The translations under genes were made by a program, and so were the position numbers. A stretch of 64,000 nt of DNA, taken from positions 1,426,001 through 1,490,000 of the forward strand of contig NZ_CP135529.1 in NCBI RefSeq assembly GCF_032401055.1. The letters run 5' to 3'. Of this stretch, positions 5,346 through 32,800 are shown piece by piece (positions within the stretch are counted from its first letter, which is position 1; each line of letters begins with the position of its first letter). The notes beneath the pieces were generated by a model. That model did not search any database and was not told where the DNA came from. It saw only the letters and a program-made list of their open reading frames with translations. This DNA comes from Tardiphaga sp. 709. Lineage in GTDB: Bacteria > Pseudomonadota > Alphaproteobacteria > Rhizobiales > Xanthobacteraceae.

Positions 5346-5444
5346 GAGTTACATACGTCGGTTGATGGTCGCTTCGTCAACTGAAAACCGTAAATGCGGC
5401 GATTTGACTTCGCCGAGAACCGCTACTTAAGCATAGGTCTAAAC

Positions 5445-11389: not shown

Positions 11390-12124
11390 TCAGACGTCCG
11401 CGGAAACCAGGTTGGTGTGACCCAGCAGATAGCTGCGGCAGTCGCGCAGGCTGCGCAAAGCGCGATTGAAGTCGCGCCCGGTCGAAACCAGCGCCCGAAT
11501 CACCAGAGGATTGCGGGCGATGCCGCGCAGCACCTTGCGCAGATCGACATCACCATTGGGTTTGATCGCAGTGGTGGCGATTTCCGGCAGGGCGCGATGG
11601 GCGGGATCGCTGACCACGCGCAAAGCGGCAAAGGGCAGTCCGGCCATGGCGGCGAACTCGGCGGCGATGTGGCTTTCCATATCGACAGCAGCGGCACCGA
11701 ATTCCGAGCGCAATGCGGCCTTGCCGGCCTGCCCCGTCACGACCTTCTCGACACCAACCAGACCACCGCGAAACACCTTCTGGCGGCCGACGCCGGCACC
11801 GGCGATCAGTTCATCGCTAAGGACTTCAGACGCTGACCAACGGCTGTTGCCGGCCACCACTTCCGTGGCCACAACGACAGCGCCTGATTTGAGATCGGGA
11901 TCGAGGCCGCCGGCGACGCCGAAGCTGATGACGCCGCGGATGCTGGCGGGGTCGAAGTCAGCCAGCAGGCTGCGGAGCTGGACGGGGTCGCTTGAACTGC
12001 AAATGACGGTCATTCCCGGCCCGGCAGCGATCTTCGCTTCCTGCACCAGCCCCGTGACGATCAATACCGGCCGCGGGTCGGTTGTATCGCCCGCGGTCGA
12101 AATGCCCCCATCGCCCAAAATCAC
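11390..12124 (-). CDS. hpnG: HpnG, adenosylhopane nucleosidase/phosphorylase
   Basis: A 244-residue member of the nucleoside phosphorylase family (GVISFGVAGGLD, and AAAVDMESHIAAEFA near the ribose-binding site). HpnG removes adenine from adenosylhopane on the way to ribosylhopane and bacteriohopanetetrol. GTG start; it overlaps the shc stop by four bases (GTGA), so it is the last gene of the hpnC-D-E-shc-hpnG operon. Confidence 0.9.
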   Translation of the reverse strand: MILGDGGISTAGDTTDPRPVLIVTGLVQEAKIAAGPGMTVICSSSDPVQLRSLLADFDPASIRGVISFGVAGGLDPDLKSGAVVVATEVVAGNSRWSASEVLSDELIAGAGVGRQKVFRGGLVGVEKVVTGQAGKAALRSEFGAAAVDMESHIAAEFAAMAGLPFAALRVVSDPAHRALPEIATTAIKPNGDVDLRKVLRGIARNPLVIRALVSTGRDFNRALRSLRDCRSYLLGHTNLVSADV

Positions 12125-14094: not shown

Positions 14095-14136
14095 ATCTCC
14101 GTACTCGTCGTGAATGATCGTCTGGTTGCGCGACAG

Positions 14137-15387: not shown

Positions 15388-16241
15388 CAGATAATCGCGT
15401 ATCGCAGCAGGATCGCTATCTTGGAGGCCTTGCCGAGACGAACGGGGTCGCGCGGCAAAGCAAAGCCACGCGTCACCAGCAATTCCAGGATGGCGTGATA
15501 ATATTTCGACATGATCCGCGGTGCGCGCACCACGCGGCGCTTGTTACGCGCCATGATCTCGTCGGACTTTTCGAAATGCGCCTGCGCCCGCTTCACCAGC
15601 GGCACACAGACCTTCGGCAATGCCGGGCTGGCGCGCACCACGTCCGGATCGCTCGACGTGATGCCGGCGTGATAGAGCAGCTCACGCGGCAGATAGAGAC
15701 GGCCGATGTCGGCGTCTTCGTCGATATCGCGCAGGATATTGGTGATCTGCAGCGCACGGCCGAGATGATACGCCAGCAGAATGCCGTCTTCGTCCGGCAT
15801 GCCGAACACCTTCACCGACAAGCGGCCGACGGCACTGGCAACACGATCGCAATACAGATCGAGCGTCGCATCGTCAGGCGCACGGATATCCGCAGGGATA
15901 TCCATCTCCATGCCGTCGATGACGGCGATGAAATCCTCTTTGCGCATGCCGAATTGCTTGATTGGCCCGGCATAGTCGCGCACACGCGCTGGCGGATTGC
16001 CTGCATAGAGCGCATCGATATCTGCGCGCCACTGCTGCATGTCAGCGAGCCTGACGTCGCGCGGACCATCGGAATCCGCGATATCGTCGACCTGACGGCA
16101 GAAGCTGTAGATCTGGAACATCGCATCGCGCTGGGCACGCGGCAGAATGCGCATCGCGGCATAGAACGAGCTGCCGGCAGCAACGCCCTGAACCTCGCTC
16201 TGAGATTCGCTATTGTTCACCTGGCTCGTCATCTGGTTCAT
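15387..16241 (-). CDS. hpnD: HpnD, presqualene diphosphate synthase
   Basis: Condenses two farnesyl diphosphates to presqualene diphosphate. Both aspartate-rich motifs are present: CRQVDDIADSDGP and NILRDIDEDADIGRLYLP. A longer frame runs from 16295, but ATG 16241 overlaps the hpnC stop in the ATGA pattern seen elsewhere in this operon and removes an unlikely N-terminal extension. About 284 residues. Confidence 0.93.
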   Translation of the reverse strand: MNQMTSQVNNSESQSEVQGVAAGSSFYAAMRILPRAQRDAMFQIYSFCRQVDDIADSDGPRDVRLADMQQWRADIDALYAGNPPARVRDYAGPIKQFGMRKEDFIAVIDGMEMDIPADIRAPDDATLDLYCDRVASAVGRLSVKVFGMPDEDGILLAYHLGRALQITNILRDIDEDADIGRLYLPRELLYHAGITSSDPDVVRASPALPKVCVPLVKRAQAHFEKSDEIMARNKRRVVRAPRIMSKYYHAILELLVTRGFALPRDPVRLGKASKIAILLRYAII

Positions 16242-17119
16242 GCGCCCGGCGTCGTCGAACGAGGCATCGGGGCGCTCGTGGTGGCGCGGCGCCACAGCCC
16301 GCCGGCAATGCCGGCCAGCGCGTAGCCAGCCATGCTGGCCTTAGAGAGATGGACCTTCTCGCTCAGCGGATCGCGCATCTTCAGCATCTTCAGTATCTGC
16401 CAGGCAAAAGTCTCGATGACGGCGACATCGCAGCCCAGCCGGACGTCCGCGATATGAACCGTCAGCGTCTCGCTCTCGTGCATCAGGGTCTCGGTCTTGG
16501 CGACCAGCTCGCGAATACAGGCCAGCAGCGCCGGCGACGCCTTCGCCTGCTTGAGATCTTCCACCGAGGCGCCGTGCCGGTCCAGCGTGTCCTGCGGAAT
16601 GTAGACCCGATCGAGATCGCGATAGTCGTTGCCGCAATCCTGCAGGTGATTGTTGATCTGCAACGCCGCGCACAGCGCATCCGACGCCGGCCAGGTGGCT
16701 TTGCTTTCGCCGTGCACGTCGAGCATGAAACGTCCGACCGGCATCGCCGAGAACGAGCAATAATGAATGAGCTCATCCCAGTCGGCGTAACGCAGCTTGG
16801 TCACGTCCATCCGGAAGGCCGTCAGGACGTCGAGCGCATGACGCGGGGCCATACCCCGCGTCTGCAGCGCCTCGCGCAGGATCACCGCTTCGGCCTGGCC
16901 GTCACCCTGACCGAGCAGGTCGGCCTCCAGCTCGTCGAGCAGAGCCAGTTTTGCAGGCGCATCGAGCAGCGCGTGATCGGCAATGTCGTCTGCGGTCCGG
17001 ACGAAATTATAGAAGGCAAGAATCAGCGCCCGGTGGCGCGGATGGATAATCCACGACGCGACAGGAAAATTCTCGTCACGATCGGTCTTGCCGGATCGCA
17101 GTTCGCTCGCAGGGGTCAT
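16238..17119 (-). CDS. hpnC: HpnC, hydroxysqualene synthase
   Basis: Converts presqualene diphosphate to hydroxysqualene. Same all-helical fold as HpnD; aspartate motifs RTADDIADH (41-49) and DCGNDYRDLDRVYIP. 293 residues. First gene of the leftward operon; a sigma-70-like promoter candidate lies 91-119 bases upstream. Confidence 0.93.
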   Translation of the reverse strand: MTPASELRSGKTDRDENFPVASWIIHPRHRALILAFYNFVRTADDIADHALLDAPAKLALLDELEADLLGQGDGQAEAVILREALQTRGMAPRHALDVLTAFRMDVTKLRYADWDELIHYCSFSAMPVGRFMLDVHGESKATWPASDALCAALQINNHLQDCGNDYRDLDRVYIPQDTLDRHGASVEDLKQAKASPALLACIRELVAKTETLMHESETLTVHIADVRLGCDVAVIETFAWQILKMLKMRDPLSEKVHLSKASMAGYALAGIAGGLWRRATTSAPMPRSTTPGA

Positions 17120-17209
17120 CCAGAACTGGCTACGTTGGATTTAAACGGGATGGCTCGGGGGCCGCCAAGGTCCGGTAATACCGGCAGGCGGGGTCGGCCG
17201 CGAGCCCCC

Positions 17210-17238
17210 ATATAGGGCAAATTGGCCCGTGAGACCAA
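17210..17238 (-). promoter_or_regulatory. Candidate housekeeping promoter of the hpnC operon
   Basis: Reading leftward: TTGGTC (17238-17233), a 17-base spacer, then CTATAT (17215-17210). Both hexamers match consensus only in part, but spacing and position upstream of hpnC fit. This is inference from sequence only. Confidence 0.35.
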
Positions 17239-17348
17239 TGCCAATATGCCACTTTCGGCCGCAGCCAGTGCCGGGCCGGATCACGTCTTAGCGGGCTCGC
17301 GGCGAGACCAAAACGGCGCCACGAGCCCGGAATCTCACATCGGCGGGC

Positions 17349-17591
17349 TTATTGGCCGTGGCTGACCAGCACATCGTTGCAGGCCTTGCTGATCTTGGGG
17401 CGGTTTTCCTTGAGGCAGGACAGAACCACGAGGTCGCCCTGATCCATCACGTTGCGGCAGAGCTTCTGCACGTCGCGGGTGCAAGCCTTCTGCTCCGCGT
17501 CGGTGCCGCTGCGGGGCTGGTTTTGCTGGGCCAATGCACCGGTCGAGGCAGATGCGGAAAGCACGGACAGTACCAGGAGAAATTTACGCAT
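17349..17591 (-). CDS. Small secreted cysteine-rich protein
   Basis: 80 residues with a clear signal peptide (MRKFLLVLSVLSASASTGALA). The mature part has four cysteines spaced ACTRDVQKLC ... LSCLKENRP ... KACNDVL, resembling a single cysteine-rich repeat of the GLG1 type (inference). Reverse strand, upstream of hpnC but separated by a 229-base gap. No function is known. Confidence 0.65.
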   Translation of the reverse strand: MRKFLLVLSVLSASASTGALAQQNQPRSGTDAEQKACTRDVQKLCRNVMDQGDLVVLSCLKENRPKISKACNDVLVSHGQ

Positions 17592-18030
17592 TGTCTTCCT
17601 TCAATATGGTGACGAGATCACAGCCCGTGTGGTGCATAGCATAAACTGAAACATTCGCATCGCCGGGAAGGCTTTATCTTCAGGCACATCGGCGAATTCG
17701 CGGCGATGGATGCAATCAGGACACAGAACATTCCCGCCGCCACAGACACGAATAAATGCGGCGAAAGCTTGCGCACATGGCCGCACTGGCTGCAGGGCCG
17801 GCCGATGCCAACCCCGCAGGACAAGATAAGGTTTTAGGACAATTGTTCAGACGCGCATCACCTCCACCCGTTCCGCTCCGGGAACCTTCGCGCTTGTGGG
17901 CGGTGACATGTTACTTTTACAATCGTCCAATTATGATCGCTCTATTGAACCTAAAGATGTGCAGCGACACTTAAGCTTCGATGAGGCGCGGCATAACTCG
18001 GTTACACAGCGCTATTTTGGGAAAACTTAC
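17592..18030. other. Divergent intergenic region of 439 bases
   Basis: No credible gene. It must carry promoters for the two flanking small exported proteins. The only pattern of note is GGAAC (17874-17870, minus strand), 16 bases, then CGTC (17853-17850), an imperfect EcfG-like site rather far (about 260 bases) from the 17591 start. Confidence 0.4.
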
Positions 18031-18531
18031 ATGACATTCCATTCTACAAAGCGGTTCGGGCACGCCCTCAAGGCCGCTGGCGCTGGCGCGGTCCTGCTGC
18101 TGTCTGTGTCCGCAGGCCATGCCCAGTCCGGACCGTTTGCCGGCTTCGACGGGGCCTGGAGCGGTACCGGAACGGTCTCCATGTCGGACGGGTCGTCGGA
18201 GCGCATTCGCTGCCGGGCGACCTACAAGGTGGATGGCGGCGGCAGCGCACTGGCTCAGACGCTGCGCTGCGCCAGCGACAGCTACAAGTTCGACCTCTCC
18301 AGCAATGTCACCAGCCAGGGCAACAACGTGTCCGGCAGCTGGAGCGAAGCCAGCCGCAACGTCTACGGCAATCTGGTCGGCAAGGCGGGCGGCGGCCAGA
18401 TCGACGTCTTCGTCGAGGCCGCGGGCTTTGCCGCCAACATCACGCTGACGACCCGCGGCAACAAGCAGTCGGTGTCGATCAGCTCCAAGGGTGAAATTCG
18501 CGGCGTCTCGATCAACATGGTCAAGAGCTGA
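18031..18531 (+). CDS. Secreted hypothetical protein
   Basis: The frame opens at 17896, but ATG 18031 begins directly on a signal peptide ending AGHAQ, so it is preferred. The mature part (about 140 residues) is Gly/Ser-rich and predicted mostly beta (FDGAWSGTGTVSMSDGS, FDLSSNVTSQGNNVSGSW), like small periplasmic barrel or lipocalin-like proteins. Family not recognised. A strong terminator follows at 18553. Confidence 0.65.
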   Translation: MTFHSTKRFGHALKAAGAGAVLLLSVSAGHAQSGPFAGFDGAWSGTGTVSMSDGSSERIRCRATYKVDGGGSALAQTLRCASDSYKFDLSSNVTSQGNNVSGSWSEASRNVYGNLVGKAGGGQIDVFVEAAGFAANITLTTRGNKQSVSISSKGEIRGVSINMVKS

Positions 18532-18552
18532 GCCAGCTCCAACGTCACTCAC

Positions 18553-18586
18553 AAAAAAGCCCCCGGGGAGATCCGAGGGCTTTTTT
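18553..18586. terminator. Bidirectional intrinsic terminator
   Basis: AAAAAAGCCC (18553-18562) pairs with GGGCTTTTTT (18577-18586). A/T runs on both sides allow termination of the rightward small gene and of the leftward RND transporter gene. Confidence 0.75.
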
Positions 18587-18615
18587 ATTTGATCGTCCTT
18601 GCTATGCGCGGTTGA

Positions 18616-20955
18616 TTACTTCTCTTGCTTCGCAAGAACCGAACTACCCGTAAGGCGCTGCTGCAGATTGATCAGCCACATCGCGGTCGGGCGCAGGATG
18701 AACAGATCGGCCACCAGTGCCGCGACCATCGAGAAGGCGCTGAGCCAGCCGAACAGCCGCAGCGATGGCAGGTCCGAGAACACCGTCACCACGAGGCCGC
18801 AGGCCAGCACCACCGTCGTCAGGATCAGCGCGGGACCAACGAGCACAGTCGCACGCTCGACGGCGATCGCGGGATCGGTGCCCGGCGTGTCTTCCAGACG
18901 CAAACGGTTGAGGAAGTGGATCGTGGCGCTAAGGCCGAGACCGAAGGACACTGTCAGTGCCACCACACTGGCGAATTGCAGCCCCTCCCCGAGCAGCCAC
19001 AATACGAAGCCGGCCAGCACCACCGGGAAGATGCCCGGCAGGATACAGGCCAGCATCACCACCCACGAGCGGAACGCGAGGCCGATGAAGACGGCGACCA
19101 ATCCGAATTCGATGGTCAGGCCGTGATTGAGCTTCTCGATCATCCCGGCGCTGTTACGCGCCGCGATCGCCGAGAGGCCGGTCACCGCAATCTCATAGCC
19201 CGGGTGCTTGGTGCGAACGGCATTCAGCGCATTGTCGAGCTTGTCGACCACCGGCAGGATCTTGCTCGAATCGCTGTCGGGCACACGGCCGGACACCACC
19301 ACCGCCGTCTGGTCCGCCGAGATGAAGCGGCGCACCAGATGTTCGGGTATCACGCTGACATATTCCTTCAGCGTCGCGACATCCGACGAGCCGGCCTTTT
19401 CCGCCAGCCAACGCCGCAGCGTTTCCAGCGACCAGACGTTACCCACACCGGCCTGCTTCTCGACCATGGCGTGGACTTCGGCGATGGTCGCCAACGTGTC
19501 CGGCGAATAGAGATCCGCGCCCTTCGGAAACTCGATCAGCACGTCGATCGGATTGGCGCCGGTCAGCTTGGCGTCGAGGCGCCCGCTGGCCGCAACCGCC
19601 TGCTCCTTGTCCGGCACCTGATCGGCCAGCCGATAGCGCGGCTCGAGATTGGCATAAACGATCCCGAGACCAACGACGACGACGAGCGAGATCAGACTGA
19701 ACAGACCAGGACGGCCGACCATGCGCACCGCGATCCAGTAACAGAAGGCGCGCAGCGCCTGCACGCCGGCATCGGCGGTCTGGAACTTGGCGGCGAAAAT
19801 CTTCTCGTTACGCACCAGCAGCACGCCGAACACCGGCACCAGCGACAGCACCGCGACCAGCGCGATGATGGTCGCCGTGAGACCGGCCTCGCCGAAGGCG
19901 CGGATCAGGTCCGAGTTGGAGAACTGCAACGCCAGGAACGAAATGCCGGCGGTGCCATGGGTGAGGACGCAGGCCGGACCCACGACACGAACCGCATTCG
20001 TAAATGCCGAATACTTGTCCTCGCCCGCGATCAACCGGTCACGCGCCGCGAAAGTGAGCTGCATCGAGTCCGCAAAACTGATCACCATGATCAGCGGCGT
20101 CATCACATTGAGGAACATGTTGAGGCTGAAGCCGGCCCAGCCGAGTGCGCCGAGCGACAACAGGATCGCCAGCAGCGGCGGAAACGCCGCGATGATCATG
20201 AACGAGATCTTGCGGAAAAAGATGATCGCAATGACGCAGCCAGCGAGAATGCCGGCGATGTTATAGATCAGGCCGTCGCGCTCGACCGCGTTGCGGATTT
20301 CGAGCTGCATCACCGGCACGCCCGACAATTCCTTGGTCAGACCGCTATTGGCCAGGTCCTCATTCATGGTCTTGCGGATATCGGCGACGACGGTGCTGAG
20401 CTTGCTGTTGCTGACCACGACCGGGTCGAGCGACAGCACCACCAGCGCCAGAGTTCCATCGTCGGACAAAAGCTTGCCGCGGATCAGCTCGTTCTGCTTC
20501 ACCGTCTCGATGAACTTGTCGTAGTCGGCGCCTTCAGGAAGATCGTTGGGAAACAGCGCTGCCGGCAACTTGCCGGGGGCCGGCGTCTGGCGCGCCGAGA
20601 AGATCGAGATCAGCCCGCGCACGCCATCGACCAATTGCAGGTCGGTGACGAGGTCGCGCATCTTTCCAAGATTGTCGCGTGCAAGCAGTGTCTTGCCTTC
20701 GAGCACGACAAGCACGTCGAACTCGGTGGACGGGAAGCGCTTCGTCACTTCCTCGTATTGCTTGTATTCCTTGCTGTCAGAACGAAATAGCTGGCTCAGT
20801 GAATCGTCGATCTTGATGCGCTGGATGCCAAAGATCGCGCCGATCACCAGCGCGAGCAGGATCACGCAGGACAGAATCGGCGCCTTCACCGCGATCAGAC
20901 CGATGCGCTCGAGCCCGAAGGCGATGCTGATCGGCCCCTTGCGCAATTTATTCAT
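18616..20955 (-). CDS. RND/MMPL family transporter, possible second hopanoid or lipid exporter
   Basis: 779 residues with two repeats of one helix, a large periplasmic loop, and five helices; first helix SCVILLALVIGAIFGI, sterol-sensing-like module around AAFPPLLAILLSLGALG. MMPL-type RND proteins move lipids and hydrophobic molecules. It is not an orthologue-length HpnN (about 865 residues) but a paralogue lying between hpnC and eutC-hpnP. A role in hopanoid traffic is inference from position only. ATG at 20955; 246-base gap to eutC. Confidence 0.8.
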   Translation of the reverse strand: MNKLRKGPISIAFGLERIGLIAVKAPILSCVILLALVIGAIFGIQRIKIDDSLSQLFRSDSKEYKQYEEVTKRFPSTEFDVLVVLEGKTLLARDNLGKMRDLVTDLQLVDGVRGLISIFSARQTPAPGKLPAALFPNDLPEGADYDKFIETVKQNELIRGKLLSDDGTLALVVLSLDPVVVSNSKLSTVVADIRKTMNEDLANSGLTKELSGVPVMQLEIRNAVERDGLIYNIAGILAGCVIAIIFFRKISFMIIAAFPPLLAILLSLGALGWAGFSLNMFLNVMTPLIMVISFADSMQLTFAARDRLIAGEDKYSAFTNAVRVVGPACVLTHGTAGISFLALQFSNSDLIRAFGEAGLTATIIALVAVLSLVPVFGVLLVRNEKIFAAKFQTADAGVQALRAFCYWIAVRMVGRPGLFSLISLVVVVGLGIVYANLEPRYRLADQVPDKEQAVAASGRLDAKLTGANPIDVLIEFPKGADLYSPDTLATIAEVHAMVEKQAGVGNVWSLETLRRWLAEKAGSSDVATLKEYVSVIPEHLVRRFISADQTAVVVSGRVPDSDSSKILPVVDKLDNALNAVRTKHPGYEIAVTGLSAIAARNSAGMIEKLNHGLTIEFGLVAVFIGLAFRSWVVMLACILPGIFPVVLAGFVLWLLGEGLQFASVVALTVSFGLGLSATIHFLNRLRLEDTPGTDPAIAVERATVLVGPALILTTVVLACGLVVTVFSDLPSLRLFGWLSAFSMVAALVADLFILRPTAMWLINLQQRLTGSSVLAKQEK

Positions 20956-21201
20956 ATCCGCGTCGTGGGGGGAACCGTATCGTGCATACCCTGTCCAGTC
21001 CTGTCGTCAGCGGCGTCTGCCTAGCAAGCGTCGCGGGCAGTAGTAAGGCTGGAATCGGCGAGACCGAACAGCGCTAGCCCTTGAAAACATGCGGTAAATT
21101 TGCCGCGGGCAGATGTAGCAGGTCTGTATGACACATCGCAAGGCGGGGAGCGCGCGGAGGTTGCGTTTCAGGTCACAAAATGGAGCGCAGAGGCTGTTGT
21201 T

Positions 21202-21987
21202 TTATACTGGCGCAGCGAGCGGCGCTACCATTTGCAGGCCGCTTTCGTCTTTCAGAGCCACACCGGTCATGTTGCGATTCAGCCCTTCGCGCGCCAGCCA
21301 GGCAATCTTGCTCGCTGCCTCCTCGAAGGACAGGCCGGCCACCTGGATGTTCGACACGCAGTTGCGCGCAGCGTCCGTCAGACCCGGCTGCGGGGCGAAG
21401 GTCAGGTAGGCGCCGAGACTCTGCGGCGCCGACAGACCAGGACGTTCGCCGATCAGCATGATCGTCATCCGGGCCCGCAATAACGCACCGATCTCGTCGC
21501 CGAGCGCGACCCTGGCGCCGCCGGCAACGACAACAGCGCCGATCCCGACCCCCGCCAATTTGGGCATTAACGCATCCAGCAGGCCAAGCGCATGCGCATT
21601 GACCGCAGCCGGAGACAGGCCGTCCGCAATCACGATCACCAGATCGGACGCGGCGCTGTCGCTCCCTTCAAGCAACTCCCGTGACTCGCGAGACAGTCGG
21701 CGGCCAAGATCGGGGCGCTTGAGATAGTCGGCACGATCCGCGACCTGGCTCGTCACCACCAGCGCGCTCGTCCCCAGCCCGGCCAGCGCAGCCGCGATGG
21801 CTTCGGCCTCGAAGGGCGCATGGACCGCGTCACGTGCGCGGGCATGGTCAAGCGTGAAATCGAGCAGGGCCTGCGTGGTCAGACTGGCTCCGGCCCGACC
21901 GAGCCCCACACGCGCCGGGGTCAGTGCCCGCAGCTCCGCGAGGGAGCGCTGCGGCGAAGGCGGCGTCACGTCATTCCGATCTGTCAT
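21202..21987 (-). CDS. eutC: Ethanolamine ammonia-lyase small subunit
   Basis: 261 residues of the EutC family ([19 protein letters not shown] near the N terminus, [33 protein letters not shown]). With EutB it forms the adenosylcobalamin enzyme converting ethanolamine to acetaldehyde and ammonia. It starts only 16 bases after hpnP and so is likely read from the hpnP transcript rather than with eutB, which is unusual. Confidence 0.93.
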
Positions 21988-22003
21988 GACGCCAGCCTAT
22001 CGC

Positions 22004-23587
22004 TCATTCGGCCGGAACGGCAGCGTCCTGCAGTTTCAACGAATAATAGGACGCGTTGGTCTGACCACCGGACGCATCGCGCGCGAAATTGATCAGATGA
22101 TGCGCGACCATGATCCCGCTGATGAGATATTCGATCTCGCCGCGGGCCAGCCGTCGGAATGCGAATTTCCAGAACGCTCGCTTGTAGTCGCCGAGCACAC
22201 CGACCTTCCAGAAGATATTGCGCAGCATCACCAGCCCGAGCCGGATGCTCTTCCAGGTCAGCATGGCGCCGATCGGCGGCTTGATGCGGTTCGGATAGGT
22301 ATGGCGGATCTGGTACTCGAAGCGCTCGAGCAGCTTCTCCGGCACATAGGCGCTGCCCATGGCGCGCCGCCAGCTTTTCACGACGTCTTCATAGGGCAAC
22401 AAGAAGTCGACGTTGGAATCGCGCCCCTCGTCCTCGTTCAGGCGGCCTTCCTTCTTCAACCGGTCCCAAAGCGGCGTTTGCGGTAGCGCCTGCAGAAGGT
22501 TGATGGTCAGAAGCGGAATCTGTGAGGTTTCCACGAATTCGAGCAAATGCTGGCCGGTCTCGGGCTTGTCGGTATCGAGGCCGAGGATGATGCCGGACAC
22601 GACTTCCATGCCGAAGCTGTTCAGCGTCTCGATCGCCTCCATGATGGGGACCATCATGTTGTGATCCTTCTTCATCGCCTTGAGGGCGACGGGATCGGGC
22701 GTCTCGATGCCGCAGAAGATCGTGCCGAACCAGGCTTCGCGCATCAGCGAAAGGATTTCCGGCCGCTTGGCGATGTTCAGCGTCGCCTCACAGGACAGGC
22801 GCAAGACAAAACCGGTCCTCTTCTGCCACTCGACGAGATGCGGCAGCAGATCGAGCGCCGCCTTGCGGTTGCCGATGAAGTTGTCATCGACGAAATAGAC
22901 CGAGCCCATGATGCCGCATTCGAGCAGCTTGTCGAGTTCGGCGGTGATCTGCTCCGGCGATTTCAGGCGCGGATTGCGCCCGTAGAGGCCGGGAATATCG
23001 CAGAACTCGCACTGATACGGACAGCCCGAAGAATACTGGATGCTGCCGAGGAAGTAGCGCGGAATATCAGCCAGTTCATAGGCCGGAATCGGAAACCTCG
23101 TCATGTCCAGGCGATCAGTGGTCTTCAGCACGACCTGCTGGTCTGGCCGCGACGTATCCTTTTCCAGGATATCGATCAGTTGGTCGGTGGCATCACCGAG
23201 TTCGCCGATATGGAGATAGTCGAAAGCCGGGTAGTAATCGGGGCATGACGAGACCGACGGCCCTCCGATCGCCACCGGAAGATCGTAGGAATGCGCGCGG
23301 TAGCAGATGTCGTTCATCTGCGTACGCTGGATGTGCATGCCTGACACCAGCACAGCTTCGGCCCACAGGAAATCATTGGGCGTGGCGGCACGGATGTTCT
23401 CGTCGATGAAACGGACTTCCCAGTTCTCGGGCATGTAGGCGGCAATCAGCAGCAAGCCCTGGGGAGGCATAAAGGCCTGAACGCCGTCGGTCAGAGGATA
23501 TGAATATTCAAACGTGCCAAATGAAGACGTGTATCGCGGAAAGACGCACAGAATGCGCCGGACCGTCTGCCTGCCCTCAGCTCTCAT
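22004..23587 (-). CDS. hpnP: HpnP, hopanoid C-2 methylase (cobalamin-binding radical SAM)
   Basis: HpnP methylates the hopanoid A ring to give 2-methylhopanoids. An N-terminal B12-binding-like domain (about 11-140) precedes the radical-SAM domain with Cys189, Cys193 and Cys196 (CPYQCEFC). Opening VRRILCVFPRYTSSFG and MPPQGLLLIAAY are what I recall of HpnP. ATG 23587 is preceded by AGAGG; a TTG one codon earlier is less likely. Distinguished from other B12-radical-SAM proteins by length (527) and hpn linkage. It has a 225-base upstream gap with an EcfG-type promoter candidate. Confidence 0.88.
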   Translation of the reverse strand: MRAEGRQTVRRILCVFPRYTSSFGTFEYSYPLTDGVQAFMPPQGLLLIAAYMPENWEVRFIDENIRAATPNDFLWAEAVLVSGMHIQRTQMNDICYRAHSYDLPVAIGGPSVSSCPDYYPAFDYLHIGELGDATDQLIDILEKDTSRPDQQVVLKTTDRLDMTRFPIPAYELADIPRYFLGSIQYSSGCPYQCEFCDIPGLYGRNPRLKSPEQITAELDKLLECGIMGSVYFVDDNFIGNRKAALDLLPHLVEWQKRTGFVLRLSCEATLNIAKRPEILSLMREAWFGTIFCGIETPDPVALKAMKKDHNMMVPIMEAIETLNSFGMEVVSGIILGLDTDKPETGQHLLEFVETSQIPLLTINLLQALPQTPLWDRLKKEGRLNEDEGRDSNVDFLLPYEDVVKSWRRAMGSAYVPEKLLERFEYQIRHTYPNRIKPPIGAMLTWKSIRLGLVMLRNIFWKVGVLGDYKRAFWKFAFRRLARGEIEYLISGIMVAHHLINFARDASGGQTNASYYSLKLQDAAVPAE

Positions 23588-23640
23588 CAAAATTCCTCTG
23601 TGATTGCATCAGCGGTCCCCATAAGCGCTGAACCTTCAAT

Positions 23641-23665
23641 AACATTGCCGAGATAAAACCGTTCC
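23641..23665 (-). promoter_or_regulatory. EcfG-type (general stress) promoter candidate upstream of hpnP
   Basis: Minus strand: GGAAC (23665-23661), 16-base spacer, TGTT (23644-23641). The alphaproteobacterial EcfG consensus is GGAAC-N16/17-CGTT, so there is one mismatch. Expected transcription start is near 23633, leaving a leader of about 46 bases to ATG 23587. EcfG control of hpnP is established in R. palustris TIE-1. Confidence 0.7.
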
Positions 23666-23812
23666 ACTCCTGCCGAATACTTTGTGCGATCTAATCACGA
23701 CGTCCGAATCTGGGCCAGAATTTCTTCAAGATTGTGGCGGGCGGTGACAAGGTCGTGACCAGCTCCGCGCAAGTGCGCGCCAAGCGCCACGCCTTATGAC
23801 GGTTTATTGACG

Positions 23813-25195
23813 TCAGGCGATCAGACGCGCGGCCAGATCGGGCAGCAGGCCGTCCCGATCGCGAATGCGAAGATCCGCTCCGGAGAGCCCGACCCGTTGC
23901 AGCCAGTCGTCGAATTCCGGTGCGCGTTTGAGCCCAAAGAGGTCGCGGATATAGAGCGCGTCGTGAAATGACGTCGACTGGTAATTCAGCATCACGTCGT
24001 CGGCGCCGGGGACGCCCATCACGAAGGTCACACCGGCCGCGGCCAGCAGCGTCAGCAGATTGTCCATGTCGTCCTGATCGGCTTCGGCATGGTTGGTGTA
24101 ACAGACATCGACACCCAGCGGCAGGCCGAGCAGCTTGCCGCAGAAATGATCCTCCAGCCCGGCGCGGATGATCTCCTTGCCGTCATAGAGATATTCGGGG
24201 CCGATGAAGCCGACGACGCTGTTCACCAGGAGTGGATCGAACGCCCGCGCAACTGCATAGGCCCGTGCCTCCAAAGTCTGCTGATCGACGCCGTGATGGG
24301 CGTTGGCCGACAGTGCCGAGCCCTGCCCTGTCTCGAAATACATGACGTTCTGACCGAGCGTGCCGCGCTTCAGGGAGAGGCCGGCATTATGCGCCTCCTT
24401 CAGGATCGCCAGATCGATGCCGAAGCTCTTGTTGGCGGCTTCTGTCCCGGCGATGGACTGAAACACCAGATCGACCGGGGCGCCTTGGTTGATGAGATCA
24501 AGACTGGTCGTGACATGGGTGAGCACGCAACTCTGGGTCGGAATATCCAGCTTGGTGATGACATCGTCGAGCAGCCGCACCAACCCGCTCAGCACCGCCG
24601 GATCGTCGCTCGCCGGATTGATGCCGATACAGGCATCACCGGAGCCCAGCACCAGCCCGTCGAGAATGGATGCCGTGATGCCCCTGATATCGTCGAACGG
24701 GTGGTTCGGCTGCAACCGCACGCTCATGCGCCCGCGCAACCCGATGGTGTTGCGAAAGCGCGTGATCACCTCGCACTTCTTGGCCACCAGGATCAGGTCC
24801 TGATTGCGCATCAGCTTAGAGACAGCGGCGGCCATTTCCGGGGTGATGCCACCGGCGACGGTCTGAAGGACTTGCGGCGCGGCCTCGTCTGACAGCAGCC
24901 AGTCGCGAAAGCCGCCGACGGTCAGTGACGAGATCACGGAAAATGCGGCGGCATCATGCGTATCAACGATGAGACGCGTGACCTCGTCGTTTTCGTAAGC
25001 CACGACCATTTCCTGCAGGAATTGCCTGAGCGGCACATCCGCCAGCGCCATCCGCGCCGCGATCATCTGCTCGGCGGTCTCGGCTGCAATCCCGGCCAAC
25101 CGATCACCGGATCGCGGCGGCGTTGCCTTGGCCATGAGGTCGCGCAGATCCGCGAAGACATGCGTATGGTCACCGATGGCGTGGCGATAGATCAT
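23813..25195 (-). CDS. eutB: Ethanolamine ammonia-lyase large subunit
   Basis: A TIM-barrel AdoCbl enzyme subunit of 460 residues. Family stretches are visible: GLRGRMSVRLQPNHPFDD, DACIGINPASDD, FQSIAGTEAANKSFG and CYTNHAEADQDDMD. ATG 25195 is chosen over the longer frame from 25270 because MIYRHAIGDHTHVFADL is the expected EutB N terminus. 32 bases after the BaiN-like gene, so possibly at the end of that operon. EutC is not adjacent: hpnP intervenes. Confidence 0.93.
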   Translation of the reverse strand: MIYRHAIGDHTHVFADLRDLMAKATPPRSGDRLAGIAAETAEQMIAARMALADVPLRQFLQEMVVAYENDEVTRLIVDTHDAAAFSVISSLTVGGFRDWLLSDEAAPQVLQTVAGGITPEMAAAVSKLMRNQDLILVAKKCEVITRFRNTIGLRGRMSVRLQPNHPFDDIRGITASILDGLVLGSGDACIGINPASDDPAVLSGLVRLLDDVITKLDIPTQSCVLTHVTTSLDLINQGAPVDLVFQSIAGTEAANKSFGIDLAILKEAHNAGLSLKRGTLGQNVMYFETGQGSALSANAHHGVDQQTLEARAYAVARAFDPLLVNSVVGFIGPEYLYDGKEIIRAGLEDHFCGKLLGLPLGVDVCYTNHAEADQDDMDNLLTLLAAAGVTFVMGVPGADDVMLNYQSTSFHDALYIRDLFGLKRAPEFDDWLQRVGLSGADLRIRDRDGLLPDLAARLIA

Positions 25196-25227
25196 GGACG
25201 GATTGTTGGATATTCGCCGGAGTCTGT

Positions 25228-26427
25228 CTAGACGTGCCGCCCCGCGGCAACGCCGGAGGACCACGCCCATTGGAAATTGAAGCCGCCGAGATGGCCGGTG
25301 ACATCGACGACCTCACCGATGAAATATAGCCCCGGCACCGATGTGGCCTCAAACGTTTTCGATGACAGTTCTGTGGTGTCCACGCCGCCAAGGGTTACCT
25401 CGGCCGTGCGATAACCCTCGGTGCCGTTCGGCCGCACGCGCCATTCCTTCACCGCCGCGGCTACCGACGCCAGAAGCTTGTCCGAAAAATCCGCCAGCCG
25501 CGGCGGGCCGGCGATCTTGTCGGCGATCATCTGGGCCAGTCGCTTGGGCAGGAGATCGCCGAGCACGGTCGCCAGTTCCTGCCGCGGACGTTCGCGGCGT
25601 GCCTCCTTCAAGGCGGCGAGCACATCGCGCGTCGGCGCCATGTCGATGACGACATCGAGCCCGTCGCGCCAATAGGACGAAATCTGCAGGACTGCCGGAC
25701 CGCTAAGACCGCGATGGGTAAACAGCAGCGCCTCGTCGAATTTGGTCTTGCCGACACTGACCACGGCATCGACGGCAACGCCCGCCAGATCCTTGAATTG
25801 CGCAAGCGCCGCAACGTCGAAGGTCAGGGGCACCAGTGCGGCCCGCGGCGCGATCATCTTCAGCCCGAATTGTTGCGCCAGTTTGTAACCAAAGGCACTG
25901 GCGCCCATTTTCGGGATCGAGGGCCCGCCGGTCGCGACGACCAGCGACTGACTGCGATATTCGCCCTGATCCGTGGCGACAACGAAGCCGCTCTCGTTCT
26001 TCGTCACGCCGAGAATGCCGACGCCAAGCCGCATCTGCACCTCGCTGCGGCGGTTTTCATCCAGCAGCATGTCGATGATCTGCTGGGACGAGCCGTCGCA
26101 GAAGAGTTGCCCGCGCGTCTTCTCGTGATAGGCGATGCGATATTTCTCGACCAGTGCGATGAAATCCTGCTGGGTAAACCCCTTCAGTGCGGATTTGCAG
26201 AATTGCGGATTTTGCGACAGGAAATTCGCCGGCGTCGTATGCAGGTTGGTGAAATTGCAGCGCCCACCACCGGAGATGCGGATCTTCTCGCCCGGCGCCC
26301 TCGCCTGCTCAAGCAGCATCACCGAGCGACCGCGCTGCCCCGCAATGCCGGCGCACATCAGGCCGGCCGCACCAGCACCGAGAATGACGATGTCGGCCGT
26401 GTTATGCGCGCGACGGACGATGGTCAT
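25228..26427 (-). CDS. BaiN/HI0933-type FAD-dependent oxidoreductase
   Basis: ATG 26427 overlaps the stop of the upstream transglutaminase gene (ATGA); the longer frame from 26604 is a shadow. The N terminus has IVILGAGAAGLMCAGIAGQ and then GGGRCNFTN, the hallmark of the HI0933/YhiN family; the C terminus has GLYFIGEVVDVTGHLGGFNFQWAWSSG. About 399 residues. Some family members reduce bile-acid enones, but most have no known substrate. Confidence 0.88.
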   Translation of the reverse strand: MTIVRRAHNTADIVILGAGAAGLMCAGIAGQRGRSVMLLEQARAPGEKIRISGGGRCNFTNLHTTPANFLSQNPQFCKSALKGFTQQDFIALVEKYRIAYHEKTRGQLFCDGSSQQIIDMLLDENRRSEVQMRLGVGILGVTKNESGFVVATDQGEYRSQSLVVATGGPSIPKMGASAFGYKLAQQFGLKMIAPRAALVPLTFDVAALAQFKDLAGVAVDAVVSVGKTKFDEALLFTHRGLSGPAVLQISSYWRDGLDVVIDMAPTRDVLAALKEARRERPRQELATVLGDLLPKRLAQMIADKIAGPPRLADFSDKLLASVAAAVKEWRVRPNGTEGYRTAEVTLGGVDTTELSSKTFEATSVPGLYFIGEVVDVTGHLGGFNFQWAWSSGVAAGRHV

Positions 26428-27302
26428 TCCAGCAGCAGCACGTCGACGGCGACAGCGAGCTTCTGCTTGCGCGCGCCGACGATCACGCCATCGACCGGCG
26501 ACACGTCCGAGAAATCGCGGCCGATCGCCAGCACGATATGATCGTTCTCGACCAAAATGTCGTTGGTCGGATCGAAGCCGATCCAGCCGAGTTCCTCGCC
26601 GCACCAGACGGACACCCAGGCATGGGTCGCGTCGGCGCCCTGCAGGCGTTCCTTGCCCGGCGGGGGAATGGTGCGCAGATATCCGCTGACATAGGCCGCA
26701 GGCAGACCGAGGCCGCGCATGCCCGCAATCATGATATGCGCAAAATCCTGACAGACGCCGTGGCGCTTATCCAGCACCTCCTGCAACGGCGTCGAAATCA
26801 CCGTGGCCTTCGGATCGTATTTGAACTCGGTGCGGATGCGATGCATCAAGTCGACGGCGCCCGCGAGAATCCCGCGGCCTTCGGTAAAGCTCACCGCCGC
26901 ATAGTCCGTGACGGCATCGATGATCGGCACCAGCGGACTGGCGAAGACGTAGCCGATCGGCGAGGCACCGCTGAGGTCGCTGGAATCGAACGACGCTTCG
27001 CGGACGCTCTCCCAGGAAGGACTGTCGTCGCCGCGCCCCGGCGCGAAGCGCTCGACATAGACCCGCGACCGGCTATCGATCCGCAGCATCTTGTGCGGGG
27101 TTTCGATCAGTACGCTTTCCGTCGGCGTGCCGAAGAAATCCGTCCGCATGGCGCGGGCCGCCGGCAGCGGTTTGATATCGACGCTGTGCGAGACCAATTG
27201 CTGACCGGCGCTGCTATTGGGCTGCAGACGCAGCGAGCAGCGCGCATAGCTCACCGGGCTTTCATAGCTATAGGTCGTGACATGGCGGATTTCGTAGATC
27301 AC
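26424..27302 (-). CDS. Bacterial transglutaminase-like protein
   Basis: 292 residues: an N-terminal beta domain typical of bacterial transglutaminase-like proteins (YEIRHVTTYSYESPVSYA) and a papain-like core with the catalytic triad visible as HGVCQDF (Cys near 184), THAWVSV (His near 226) and GFDPTND (Asp near 242). GTG start overlapping the ATP-grasp stop (GTGA). It partners the ATP-grasp/alpha-E protein in many bacteria; it may cleave or form an amide bond on an unknown peptide. Confidence 0.88.
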   Translation of the reverse strand: MIYEIRHVTTYSYESPVSYARCSLRLQPNSSAGQQLVSHSVDIKPLPAARAMRTDFFGTPTESVLIETPHKMLRIDSRSRVYVERFAPGRGDDSPSWESVREASFDSSDLSGASPIGYVFASPLVPIIDAVTDYAAVSFTEGRGILAGAVDLMHRIRTEFKYDPKATVISTPLQEVLDKRHGVCQDFAHIMIAGMRGLGLPAAYVSGYLRTIPPPGKERLQGADATHAWVSVWCGEELGWIGFDPTNDILVENDHIVLAIGRDFSDVSPVDGVIVGARKQKLAVAVDVLLLE

Positions 27303-29806
27303 GCCAGCCCCGTGAGCTTTTCAGGACGCGATGCGCTGGCGCCGTGCGGGAAGTAATGCAGGCCGATCGAATCCGCCAGCGTCAGCAGATCCTGCTCCAG
27401 CGCGAACAGTGACTTGGTATGAATCTCGGATGCCTCGCCGGTAACCAGCGACGAGCGCAGCGCCACGGCCAGCCGCTGCGGCCGTTCCATCAGGCCGTTT
27501 TCCTTCAGCGTCGGCAAGCTGGCGATGTGATCGTTCAGTGCCGAGACCTGGAACGCCACCGAGCGCGGGTTATAGGGATCGAGCACCACGAGATCGCGCA
27601 CCGGCGCGAGTAGCGGGCCAACCAGATAACGCGAGCGATAGGTGATCTGGCAATCCACCAGCGTCAGCAGGATGTCGAGATCGTCGCTCGTCGCCTCGTC
27701 GGACGCGAATTGCCGCGCAAAGCGCGTGGTGTTGATCGCGCGTTCGGCACGGCGCCCCATTTCGAGGAAACGCCAGCCGGCGGCGCGGTTCATGTTTTCC
27801 TGCGCGAGACCGGCGAAGCTCGCCAGTTCCTGCAAGGTCAGCTCGGCCGCACTGACGACGTCATCGTCATCTTCGACCTCATGCGCAAGCCGCTCGGCCA
27901 TTTCGGTGATGACCTGCCAGGCATCCGGCGACAGCCGTTCGCGCAGCGAGGTTGCGGTCCGCAATGCGGAGCGCACCAGCGATAGCGCCGAGCCAAACTG
28001 CTCCTCGCTCTGCAAGGCTTGCGCGGCGACCTTCGCCGGCTGCGAACGTGATGTCAGCGATGTCGCGCCCCAAGTCATCAGCATGCGCTGGATGCGCTCG
28101 ATCGACTGCTGTCCAGTGGCGCCGCCCTTGCCGGGATCGCGCTGCGGCACGCTGAGTGCACGGATCAGACGCAGTGTGGATTCGGCGCGCTCGAGATAGC
28201 GCCCGAGCCAGAACAGATTGTCGGCGGCGCGGCTTGGCACCCAGCCGGCGATGCGGCGGATACGCACATTGTCCACGGCCGGCAGTAGCGTCGATGCAGC
28301 AACGGCCTTGTCGGCCACCACCCAGACGTCGGCGGCGCGTGCGCCCGCGCCCATGGACACGGCGCGGGCATCGGGCTGGTCGGCGATCCGGCAGAAACCA
28401 CCGGGCATGATGGTCCAACCGTCCGGCGTCGCCGCCGCGAAGACGCGCAGCACGAAGGGGCGCGGCGCGAGCCGGCCATTGTCCCAGACCGGCGTAGTCG
28501 ACAGCTGCACCAGCTCCTGCCCGACATAATCGACGCCGCGATTGGAGATCGCTGCCTTCAGGCGCTCGCGTTCATCCGGCGAGAGCTGCGACGGCAGCAC
28601 AGGCGAGTAGCCAGGGAAACCGGGCACCGCTCCGCCATAGGCGCCTTCGATCGCGAAATCGTCGAGCCGCGCCAGCACTTCCTCGCGCGCCGATTTCTGG
28701 CCGCACCACCAGGTGGCGATATGCGGCATCTTGAGTGGTTCGCCGAGCAGCTTCCGGCTCAAGCTTGGCAGGAAGCCCAGCAGTGCGCGCGCTTCCATCA
28801 CGCCGGAGCCGGGCATGTTTGCGACGACGACGCCATTCTTTCTGACGACGTCGATCAGCCCGGGCACACCGAGTTGCGACGAGGCATCAAGCTCCAGCGG
28901 GTCGAGCGAATTGGCATCCACACGGCGCAGCAGCACATCAAGGCGCTTCAAGCCGGCCACAGTGCGGATGTGCACACGGTCGCCTGAGACTGCGAGGTCA
29001 TCGCCTTCCACCAGCAGGAAACCGAGATAGCGCGCCAGCGTCGCGTGTTCGAAATAGGTCTCGCTGAACGGCCCCGGTGACAACAGGCCGACGCGCGGCT
29101 CATCGCGGTCGGCAGAGGCGCGCAGGCTGTCGCGAAACGCTTCGAAGAACGGCGCGACGCGCTCGACATTCATCGACTTGTAGAGGTCGGTGAAGGCGCG
29201 CGACAGCACCAGTCGGTTTTCCAGCGCATAGCCCATGCCGGACGGCGCTTGCGTGCGATCGCCGAGCACCCACCAGCGGCCATCGGGACCGCGGCCGAGA
29301 TCGGCGGCATAGACGTTGAGATAGCGGCCACCGGGCGGTTTCACACCGCGCATCGCCCGCAGATATTCCGAACTGCCGGCAATCGCCGCCGCCGGGATCG
29401 CGCCGGACGCGACAAGGCTGGCATCGCCATAGAGATCGCCGAGGATCTTCTCCAGCAACTCGGCGCGCTGCGTCATTGCCGCTGAAATCTGCAGCCATTC
29501 GGATTCGTCGATCAGGAGTGGCACATGGCTGAGTGGCCAGATCCGGTCGGCGATTTCGCCGGGCGCGCGGTAGGTGACGCCGGCTTCCCGGAGATGACGG
29601 TCGGCGGAACCGAAGCGGCGCTCGATCTCGACAGGCGCCATGGCGCCGAAGGCCTCGAAGAACCGCGTCCAGACCTCGCGGGGCGTGCCGTCCTGGGCGA
29701 TGAATTCGTCGGGAATCCCGGGCAGCCGCTCGTAGTCGCGGGTCCATTGCGCGACTTTACGATGTCCCGGACGGGGCTTTTTCCCCTGACCGGCCTGTCC
29801 CGTCAT
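27299..29806 (-). CDS. Circularly permuted ATP-grasp protein fused to alpha-E domain
   Basis: About 835 residues. The N-terminal part (to about 515) is a circularly permuted ATP-grasp (RAMRGVKPPGGRYLNVYAADL, LLSPGPFSETYFEHA); the C-terminal part from about 520 is the helical alpha-E domain (VPSRAADNLFWLGRYLERAE). In many genomes these are two genes; here they are fused. A TTG at 29824 is possible, but ATG 29806 has GGAGAG upstream. ATP-grasp enzymes join a carboxylate to an amine; the product here is unknown. Operon with both transglutaminase genes. Confidence 0.88.
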   Translation of the reverse strand: MTGQAGQGKKPRPGHRKVAQWTRDYERLPGIPDEFIAQDGTPREVWTRFFEAFGAMAPVEIERRFGSADRHLREAGVTYRAPGEIADRIWPLSHVPLLIDESEWLQISAAMTQRAELLEKILGDLYGDASLVASGAIPAAAIAGSSEYLRAMRGVKPPGGRYLNVYAADLGRGPDGRWWVLGDRTQAPSGMGYALENRLVLSRAFTDLYKSMNVERVAPFFEAFRDSLRASADRDEPRVGLLSPGPFSETYFEHATLARYLGFLLVEGDDLAVSGDRVHIRTVAGLKRLDVLLRRVDANSLDPLELDASSQLGVPGLIDVVRKNGVVVANMPGSGVMEARALLGFLPSLSRKLLGEPLKMPHIATWWCGQKSAREEVLARLDDFAIEGAYGGAVPGFPGYSPVLPSQLSPDERERLKAAISNRGVDYVGQELVQLSTTPVWDNGRLAPRPFVLRVFAAATPDGWTIMPGGFCRIADQPDARAVSMGAGARAADVWVVADKAVAASTLLPAVDNVRIRRIAGWVPSRAADNLFWLGRYLERAESTLRLIRALSVPQRDPGKGGATGQQSIERIQRMLMTWGATSLTSRSQPAKVAAQALQSEEQFGSALSLVRSALRTATSLRERLSPDAWQVITEMAERLAHEVEDDDDVVSAAELTLQELASFAGLAQENMNRAAGWRFLEMGRRAERAINTTRFARQFASDEATSDDLDILLTLVDCQITYRSRYLVGPLLAPVRDLVVLDPYNPRSVAFQVSALNDHIASLPTLKENGLMERPQRLAVALRSSLVTGEASEIHTKSLFALEQDLLTLADSIGLHYFPHGASASRPEKLTGLA

Positions 29807-29837
29807 TCCGACTCTCCAGCCCAAACTGCCTGCATTC

Positions 29838-32800
29838 TCAATGCAGGAGAGGCGTTCGCAAGTCGAGGGTCAATGGGAATTCAAGTGTGCGTTCTGCCCT
29901 TGGCGGAGCAATTTCGCCGGGCGTGTGGCCAATCTCCTCGAAACGGGCCAGCCGGCGAGCTTCCGCCTCGTAGGCATTGACCGGTTTTGTCTCGTAATTG
30001 CGGCCGCCGGGATGCGCCACATGATAGACGCAACCGGCAAGCGACCGCCGATTCCAGCTGTCATAAATATCGAACACCAGCGGCGCATGGACCGGAATCG
30101 TCGGGTGCAGGCCGGAGGCCGGCTGCCAGGCCTTGAAACGGACGCCCGCGACCACCTCGCCGGCCCGGCCGGTGTCAGTCATCGGCAGCGCCCGGCCGTT
30201 GCAGGTAATGATGTGCCGGCCCGGCGTGAAACCGTTGGCCTTGAGCTGCAACCGCTCCACCGAAGAATCCACATAACGGACGGTGCCGCCGGCCGAGCCC
30301 TCCTCGCCCAGCACATGCCAAGGCTCCAGTGCCTGTCGGACTTCAAGCGTCACGCCGCCATAGGTGACGTGACCGAACACGGGGAAGCGGAATTCGAGTT
30401 GGGCTTCGAACCATTCCCTGGAGAATTCGTAGCCGGAGCGGCCGAGTTCGGTGAGTACGTCCTGGAAATCCTCCCAGAGGAAATGCGGCAGCATGAAACG
30501 ATCATGCAGCGCGGTGCCCCAGCGCACGAATTTGCCGTCCTGCGGCGCACGCCACATCTTCGCGATCAGCGCGCGGATCAACAGCTGTTGCGCCAGCGAC
30601 ATGCGCGGATCGGGCGGCATTTCGAGCGCACGGAATTCGACGAGGCCGAGACGACCTGTCGTGCCATCGGGCGAATAGAGTTTGTCGATACAGATCTCGG
30701 CGCGATGGGTATTGCCGGTGATATCGACGAGGATGTGCCGGAACAGCCGATCCACCAGCCACAGCGGCGCCTTCTCGCCTGGGGGCGGCACCTGTGCCAG
30801 CGCGATCTCCAATTCGTAGAGACCGTCATGCCGCGCCTCGTCGATGCGCGGTGCCTGACTTGTCGGGCCGATGAACATGCCGGAGAACAGATAGGACAGC
30901 GACGGATGACGCTGCCAATACAGCACGAGACTCTTCAGGAGATCCGGCCGACGCAGGAACGGCGAATCCGCCGGCGAGCTGCCGCCGACCACCACGTGAT
31001 TGCCACCACCGGTGCCGGTGTGACGACCATCCAGCAGAAACTTGTTGGCGCCGAGCCGCGTCTTCGCGGCCTCTTCATAGAGAAATGTCGTGGTATCGAC
31101 GGCTTCGCGCCAGCTCGAAGCGGGATGAATGTTGATCTCCAGCACGCCGGGATCGGGCGTCACCTTGATCACTTCGACGCGCGGATCGAACGGCGGCGGA
31201 TAGCCTTCGACGTGCACCTGCATCTGCAGTTCTTCGGCCGTCGCCTCCAGCGCCGTCACCAGTTCGAGATAATCTTCAAACTTCTCGACCGGCGGCATGA
31301 AGGCACAGAGAATGCCGTCGCGAATTTCAATCGACATCGCGGTACGCACGCCGCCGGAACGAATCTGCTGCTCCTGGACGTATTGCGCGGCAGGCTGGTT
31401 TTCCGCGGACGCGATTTCGTCGAACACCGGCATGTCGCCGCGCGGCTCCAGCGGATCCTGCTCGACGATGAACGGATATTCCTCTTCGGTGAGGTGCGGC
31501 AGCGACGACAACGGCAGGCGCAGGCCCATCGGTGAATCGCCAGGTGTCAGGAACAGGTTGCCGCGGCGGAGCTTCCACCGCTCGGACCGCCAGCGTCTGT
31601 CCGCGGCCGCCTCCGTATTCCAGCGCTGGATCGGCAGCACAAACCCTTTCGGCCTGTCGAGTCCATGTTCGAAGACCCGCGCCATGCGCGCACGTTCCTC
31701 CGGATCGGGCAATTTGGAGTCGCCGGGCACGACATTGTTCGGCAGGTTCGATTCCTTCTGCTCCCAATAGACGGGATCCTCGAAGGCCGGGATGACATAG
31801 TCCTTCGGCAGGCCAAGCCGCCGCGCCGTGCCTTCGGCAAAACGCTCGGCACCGCCGATATCGGCGCTACGCGGGCCTTCGATCCGTGAGATCAGCGCAT
31901 CGTTCTTCCAGATCGGCACGCCATCCTTGCGCCAATACAGGCCGAACGCCCAGCGCGGCAGACTTTCGCCGGGATACCATTTGCCCTGCCCGTAATGCAT
32001 CAGGCCACCCGGTGCGAAGCGCGTCCGCAGCCGGCGGATCAGATCGTCGCCGAGGCCGCGCTTGGTCGGACCGACGGCGGCCGTATTCCACTCCGGAGAT
32101 TCCATATCGTCGACGGAGACGAAGGTCGGCTCGCCGCCCATGGTGAGACGCACGTCATGAGCTTTGAGATCGGCGTCGACCTTCTCGCCGAGCGCATCGA
32201 GCCTGGCCCAGGATTCATCCGAGAACGGCTTTGTGATCCGCGGCGCCTCGCGAATACGTTTGACGCCCATCGCGAACGCGAACTCGACTTCGGCGAAGCC
32301 GGCCATGCCGGAGATCGGCGCCGCCGACCGGAAATGCGGTGTGGCCGCGACTGGGACGTGCCCCTCGCCCGTCAACATGCCCGAGGTCGCATCGAAGCCG
32401 ACCCAGCCGGCGCCGGGAATATAGACTTCGGCCCAGGCGTGCAGGTCCGTGAAATCAGCCTCGACTTCGGGCGGCCCTTCGATCGGATCGATGTCCGGGC
32501 GCAACTGGATCAGATAGCCGGAGACAAAACGCGCGGCGAGACCGAGATGGCGCAGCGTCTCGATCAGGAGCCACGCAGAGTCGCGGCATGAGCCCGCGCC
32601 GGACAGCAGCGTCTCTTCCGGCGTCTGTACGCCGGGCTCCATGCGGATGATGTAGTTGACCTTCTCGCGCAGGCGCGCATTGAGCTCGACGAGGAAGTTG
32701 ACCGTGTTCGGCGCTTCCTTCGCGATCTCCGCCATATAGGCCGTGAAGCGCGGCCCCGGCTCCGTCGTCGCCATATAGGGCGCGAGTTCGCTCTTCAGGT

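Follow-up and report, generated by a model that had tools for sequence, protein, structure and literature searches.

What does it mean that a gene of hopanoid methylation stands between the genes for the two subunits of one enzyme? In the stretch of the Tardiphaga sp. 709 genome analysed here (assembly GCF_032401055.1, contig NZ_CP135529.1, positions 1,426,001 to 1,490,000; these 64,000 nucleotides are referred to below as the window), the genes of the large and small subunits of ethanolamine ammonia-lyase, eutB and eutC, are separated by hpnP, which encodes the hopanoid C-2 methylase. Adjacency of eutB and eutC is usual, yet it lies outside the definition of the enzyme. The 2-methylhopanes are molecular fossils, and how living bacteria control C-2 methylation is not settled. 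The conserved tie of hpnP to one half of a cobalamin enzyme offers a concrete lead in genera that are used for hopanoid study, and the locus is a clear example from nature of two subunit genes that an unrelated gene has kept apart for a long time. The features at the centre of the question are, in window coordinates:

23813 to 25195, minus strand: eutB, ethanolamine ammonia-lyase large subunit, 460 aa (Pfam PF06751, 713 bits, cut-off 25; NCBIfam NF011649, 708 bits, cut-off 554)
22004 to 23587, minus strand: hpnP, hopanoid C-2 methylase, 527 aa from ATG (Radical_SAM and DUF4070)
21988 to 22003, minus strand: the hpnP-eutC junction, 16 bases, read from the window sequence
21202 to 21987, minus strand: eutC, ethanolamine ammonia-lyase small subunit, 261 aa (NCBIfam NF003971, 311 bits, cut-off 230; Pfam PF05985, 294 bits)

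The sequence-only reading of this DNA had placed hpnP between eutB and eutC on one strand, with 225 bases from the eutB stop to the hpnP ATG and 16 bases from the hpnP stop to the eutC ATG, and both the coordinates and the family matches bear this out; an alternative TTG start of hpnP is present at 23590, one codon before the ATG. In the window eutB and eutC are not adjacent, as hpnP intervenes. An intact adjacent eutBC pair elsewhere in the genome had been named as the finding that would speak against that reading, and the search of the whole genome (6.36 Mb, completeness 100) yielded one EutB match and one EutC match, both at this locus, and no further eutB or eutC. The explanation that we favour, with a probability of roughly 0.7, is that hpnP and the promoter region that belongs to it were embedded once in an ancestral eutBC operon, where they would form a nested transcription unit, and that the resulting order has been inherited.

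The eutB-hpnP-eutC order (the triad) is visible in many public genomes. The comparison across hpnP-bearing genomes that the sequence-only reading had proposed was made in a family sample of 198 genomes, the genome of the window included, and in a set of named loci, which are the best 80 of 291 and biased to close relatives. Of the family genomes, 103 carry hpnP, and the triad is present in 48 of them (the genome of the window and 47 others) distributed over 8 genus-level groups; 2 of these 48 also have an adjacent eutBC pair. The remaining hpnP genomes either have no EutB or EutC match at all (33 of the 103), carry an adjacent eutBC pair elsewhere (21, one of which, G151, has a damaged triad as well), or, in the single case of G165, have the genes split over contigs in an arrangement compatible with the triad. 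Among the family genomes that lack hpnP, 50 have adjacent eutBC and 2 a fragment only. Within the genus of the window, the triad is whole in 11 of 13 sampled genomes, split between contigs in one and damaged in one. The named loci show the triad in 65 of 80 cases (Bradyrhizobium, Rhodopseudomonas rhenobacensis, Tardiphaga and others); in 13, Nitrobacter included, hpnP is present with eutB and eutC out of reach, and two loci are partial (L006, without eutB, and L064, cut off after hpnP). The presence of the same order in 47 other family genomes and in 65 named loci refutes an assembly artefact or a chance order in one genome, to which we assign a practically negligible probability. A search for EutB alone covered 16 further hpnP genomes, which lie outside the family and come from the order and class samples, and in all 7 positive ones eutB lies away from hpnP. 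As a separate observation, four genomes of the sample encode fused EutB-EutC paralogs in one frame of 734-798 aa (G017:C6, G044:C1, G052:C1 and G147:C50), in addition to an ordinary pair.

The phylogenies of the proteins point to the same history. In a phylogeny built from EutB joined to EutC (IQ-TREE, 91 rows), the triads (52 rows) and the adjacent pairs (39 rows) fall on opposite sides of one branch with a Shimodaira-Hasegawa-like approximate likelihood ratio test (SH-aLRT) support of 100, and FastTree applied to 99 rows groups all 59 triads as a single clade. Such a clade agrees with an origin in one ancestral event. The HpnP tree (80 rows) requires 7 or more changes of the triad state, at least 4 of them forced by well-supported branches, and on it the loci with hpnP only are nested among the triads. 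Since the triad EutBC sequences form one clade, most of these changes are best read as losses. Apparent remnants of such losses are present in two loci. At L009, eutB debris precedes hpnP on its 5' side, in the form of two short EutB matches and a stretch that reads, by eye, like the EutB C-terminus. In G151, eutB is frame-broken and about 1.7 kb of other sequence lies before hpnP; this eutB-hpnP interval (locus L142, 7674-9345) holds a frame that reads, by eye, like an outer-membrane porin. Among the rows of the EutB+EutC tree, there is no triad-type eutBC that has lost hpnP. Loci with hpnP and without eut genes exist, so HpnP is independent of a nearby EutBC. We infer that hpnP with its promoter region entered the operon of eutB and eutC a single time, in an ancestor of the group formed by Bradyrhizobium, Rhodopseudomonas, Tardiphaga and Nitrobacter, and that the order was tolerated and kept by descent, to be lost where a lineage drops this ethanolamine ammonia-lyase. 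Judging from the distribution and the trees, the order is old and widely inherited in Bradyrhizobium-related soil bacteria.

The direction of this event is suggested by the spacing of the genes, which was measured with starts chosen by rule. Among 40 loci with an ordinary adjacent pair, 29 have a possible eutC start codon (ATG or GTG) that gives an overlap of 4 bases with the end of eutB, and because of this overlap we take the adjacency of eutB and eutC as the older state. Of the 75 triad loci measured, 66 have a gap of -4 to 22 bases between hpnP and eutC (median 6). The interval between eutB and hpnP, for which the median over 80 loci is 149.5 bases, ranges from 65 to 273 except in the damaged L142. 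The locus could also have been assembled piecemeal, with eutB and eutC of one pair placed on either side of a pre-existing hpnP at the edge of the hopanoid gene cluster. The linkage of hpnP to that cluster with or without eut genes, owing to which the cluster may be the older frame, is in line with such a history; it is made quite improbable by the 4-base overlap possible in most adjacent pairs and by the cost of two placements on the same strand and in the original order, which takes more steps than one.

The single embedding of hpnP together with a promoter region finds further support in the spacer between eutB and hpnP, in which two elements were recognised:

23710 to 23737, minus strand: conserved 28-base block CCACAATCTTGAAGAAATTCTGGCCCAG (also given as CCACAATNTTGAAGAANTTNTNGCCCAG), from the alignment of eutB-hpnP spacers
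23641 to 23665, minus strand: EcfG-type (general stress) promoter-like motif GGAAC-N17-GTT, which ends 53 bases before the hpnP ATG

When up to 5 mismatches are allowed and the 400 bases before hpnP are considered, the block is present in 55 of the 87 loci that have both hpnP and eutB and in 16 of the 35 that have hpnP but lack eutB; none of the 40 eutB loci without hpnP has it. These rows include two pieces of the genome of the window (L001 and L082, the latter of which stops short of the spacer), and a match in L162, on the wrong strand and due to chance, was not counted. The block upstream of hpnP is conserved across genera, whether or not these have the eut genes, and in its 26-base form it has a single site in the genome of the window at up to 3 mismatches.

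Of 79 triad spacers, 17 contain the EcfG-type motif, with 16 to 18 bases between GGAAC and GTT, where shuffles give a mean of 0.675. It is also found in 27 of 34 regions upstream of hpnP without eutB and in none of 81 regions upstream of triad eutB, both counted without shuffles. A G[CT]AAC variant (GCAAC), picked post hoc from the alignment, is present in 30 of the 62 spacers that lack the motif against 1.3 in shuffles, and 32 spacers have neither form; because the spacer sequences are related, the shuffle counts overstate significance. The Rhizobium etli EcfG motif is given in PMC3892343 as GGAAC-N16-CGTT, from which the motif of the window, GGAAC-N16-TGTT, differs by one base and which is matched exactly in L002, L004 and L005, close relatives of the window. 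The hpnP gene of Rhodopseudomonas palustris TIE-1 is reported to be under EcfG control (Kulkarni et al. 2013, as cited in a passage of PMC4337730), and the window likewise has an HpnP homologue with an EcfG-type motif upstream. As judged from their distribution, both the block and the EcfG-type motif belong to hpnP rather than to eutB. A structured RNA leader in the spacer was considered and rejected, as the spacer folds worse than 200 of 200 of its own shuffles (z 2.18). No cobalamin riboswitch or other known RNA was found in 13000-31000, where two weak matches, neither of them a riboswitch, stay below the gathering score.

How the three genes would be expressed can be proposed from these elements. 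Transcription of eutC from the hpnP promoter, as the sequence-only reading had it, is likely because of the tight packing of hpnP and eutC and of the stress-type motif that stands before hpnP and not before eutB. The sequence-only reading is supported in part; its further proposal, that the order couples a lyase subunit to lipid methylation, is at most a possibility. A terminator that would isolate eutB from hpnP was rejected as a candidate, as no site rises above chance: there is no terminator-like site on the coding strand of the spacer in the window, and among 79 loci one was found, which is fewer than in shuffles. Because of this lack of a terminator, transcription that begins upstream of eutB may extend into eutC as well. 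In the proposed scheme, a long eutB-hpnP-eutC transcript would arise by read-through from upstream of eutB, and an internal hpnP-eutC transcript would start from the stress-type promoter of hpnP. Thus eutC is probably co-expressed with hpnP and perhaps additionally by read-through from eutB, and its translation may follow directly on that of hpnP.

EutB and EutC would still assemble as an ordinary lyase. Both proteins belong to ordinary families above curated cut-offs, like those of the E. coli-type eutBC operon, which differs from the window in that hpnP with a promoter-like region lies in the latter between the subunit genes, and eutC follows hpnP. In PDB, the structural relatives of EutB are 2qez and 3abo, and those of EutC are the light chains of 3any and 3abo. 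In 10 comparisons, the ratio of nonsynonymous to synonymous substitution rates (dN/dS) was 0.08-0.15 for eutB and 0.12-0.27 for eutC, with some dS values near saturation and with only the best stretch used for the frame-broken eutB of L142. On these values, eutB and eutC are under purifying selection. Relaxed selection on eutC after the split was rejected in view of the low dN/dS and of a divergence of EutC that, at equal EutB divergence, is near that of adjacent pairs. Owing to the same two results, the EutBC enzyme is probably still in use; it is predicted to be an ordinary adenosylcobalamin-dependent ethanolamine ammonia-lyase and appears functional.

Several observations weigh against a single embedding of hpnP with its promoter region and its inheritance by descent. 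The trees on which the single origin rests are quick ones, with SH-aLRT support only, an insecure root and some long branches. The contig of a metagenome-assembled genome represented by L006 retains hpnP and eutC with other genes at the position of eutB; therefore eutB and eutC are not always retained or lost jointly, and removal of eutB only may occur. The conserved block is absent or too diverged in 32 of the 87 triad-type loci, the exact EcfG-type motif is missing in most Bradyrhizobium triads, and the GCAAC variant sits at a different place than the exact motif. Finally, the divergence of EutC is slightly higher in triads than in adjacent pairs in 3 of 5 shared bins of EutB divergence, and lower in 2.

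The order may also owe its persistence to selection. In such a case, the general stress response would act through the hpnP promoter to raise EutC, and with it lyase activity, alongside C-2 methylation, the motive being either the use of ethanolamine freed in phospholipid turnover or the need of both enzymes for cobalamin. The spread of the triad over 8 genus-level groups, the tight hpnP-eutC junction, the position of the stress-type motif before hpnP instead of eutB, and the EcfG control of hpnP in strain TIE-1 mentioned in PMC4337730 are all consistent with it. Nevertheless, several lineages nested among the triads have no eut genes around hpnP, the 7 checked genomes outside the family that have both hpnP and eutB keep them apart, the cobalamin riboswitch search around the locus was negative, and the motif would boost eutC and not eutB. 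The ethanolamine permease model TIGR00908 likewise stays below its cut-off in the genome of the window (best 51.5 bits vs. 381.75), although this has little weight, as it passes in none of 14 controls, E. coli included. In our estimation, a selected stress link between hpnP and eutC is rather unlikely. A more specific form of it, in which the hpnP promoter would yield hpnP-eutC mRNA under stress with eutB set separately, so that the supply of EutC would gate the lyase during membrane remodelling and two cobalamin enzymes with membrane lipids or their head groups as substrates would rise together, must be regarded as a doubtful proposition.

The cobalamin link between the two enzymes, to which the sequence-only reading had drawn attention by way of a B12-binding domain in HpnP, is suggestive only. 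Such a domain gave no Pfam match in HpnP at E up to 10. The best matches of the AlphaFold model of HpnP, a model of low confidence with a mean predicted local distance difference test score (pLDDT) of 58, are OxsB, AprD4, MgmA and TokK, all with template modelling scores (TM-scores) below 0.5; they are cobalamin radical S-adenosylmethionine enzymes. No NCBIfam model for HpnP itself gave a match among the proteins of the window. HpnP shares 76% identity with its counterpart in Rhodopseudomonas rhenobacensis (L046), and the closest named relative at this locus among the best 80 of 291, Tardiphaga robiniae, has an HpnP identical in 99%. As a measure of close similarity to a characterised HpnP, a passage of PMC12583986 gives about 55% or more to the HpnP of TIE-1.

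Beyond these genes, the surroundings of hpnP include the following:

25228 to 26541, minus strand: HI0933-like flavoprotein gene, directly upstream of eutB in the window
18616 to 20955, minus strand: MMPL/RND transporter gene, 779 aa, next after eutC (Pfam MMPL)
11390 to 17119, minus strand: hopanoid cluster hpnG, shc, hpnE, hpnD and hpnC (NCBIfam HpnG, TIGR01507, HpnE, HpnD and HpnC above cut-off)

In the direction of transcription, the minus-strand genes follow each other as HI0933-like, eutB, hpnP, eutC, MMPL, hpnC, hpnD, hpnE, shc and hpnG, and hpnH is on the opposite strand. The known hopanoid cluster hpnCDE-shc-hpnGH is thus a neighbour of hpnP both in the window and in the majority of the named related loci: in the window, 7.9 kb lie between the end of hpnP and the start of shc, and hpnC is downstream of hpnP on the same strand in 62 of the 69 named loci that have at least 7 kb after hpnP. 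In contrast to this linkage in the family of the window, a passage of PMC10697835 states that in no phylum are the genes for squalene cyclase and HpnP syntenic. According to a passage of PMC12583986, hpnP is usually not co-localised with BHPD genes. Among open-licence full texts, we found no paper that joins hpnP or hopanoids with eut genes, although key papers on hpnP regulation and phylogeny lie outside this set and may mention the order; the passage of PMC3542024 on eutBC in Bradyrhizobium and R. palustris is a list of taxa without gene order.

An MMPL transporter gene is the next one after hpnP or eutC in most of the named loci. The assignment of the 779-aa MMPL gene of the window as HpnN was rejected, as it reaches 56 bits with TIGR03480 against a cut-off of 752, and hpnN is at 6145-8734. 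The latter gene, on the minus strand, is present in two overlapping frames (7043-8734 and 6145-7053), that is, with a mid-gene frame break which is either real or a sequencing error. At the other end of the gene series, a 463-aa frame at 4931-6322 of locus L003 lies between the HI0933-like gene and eutB, and reads, by eye, like a globin-coupled chemotaxis sensor.

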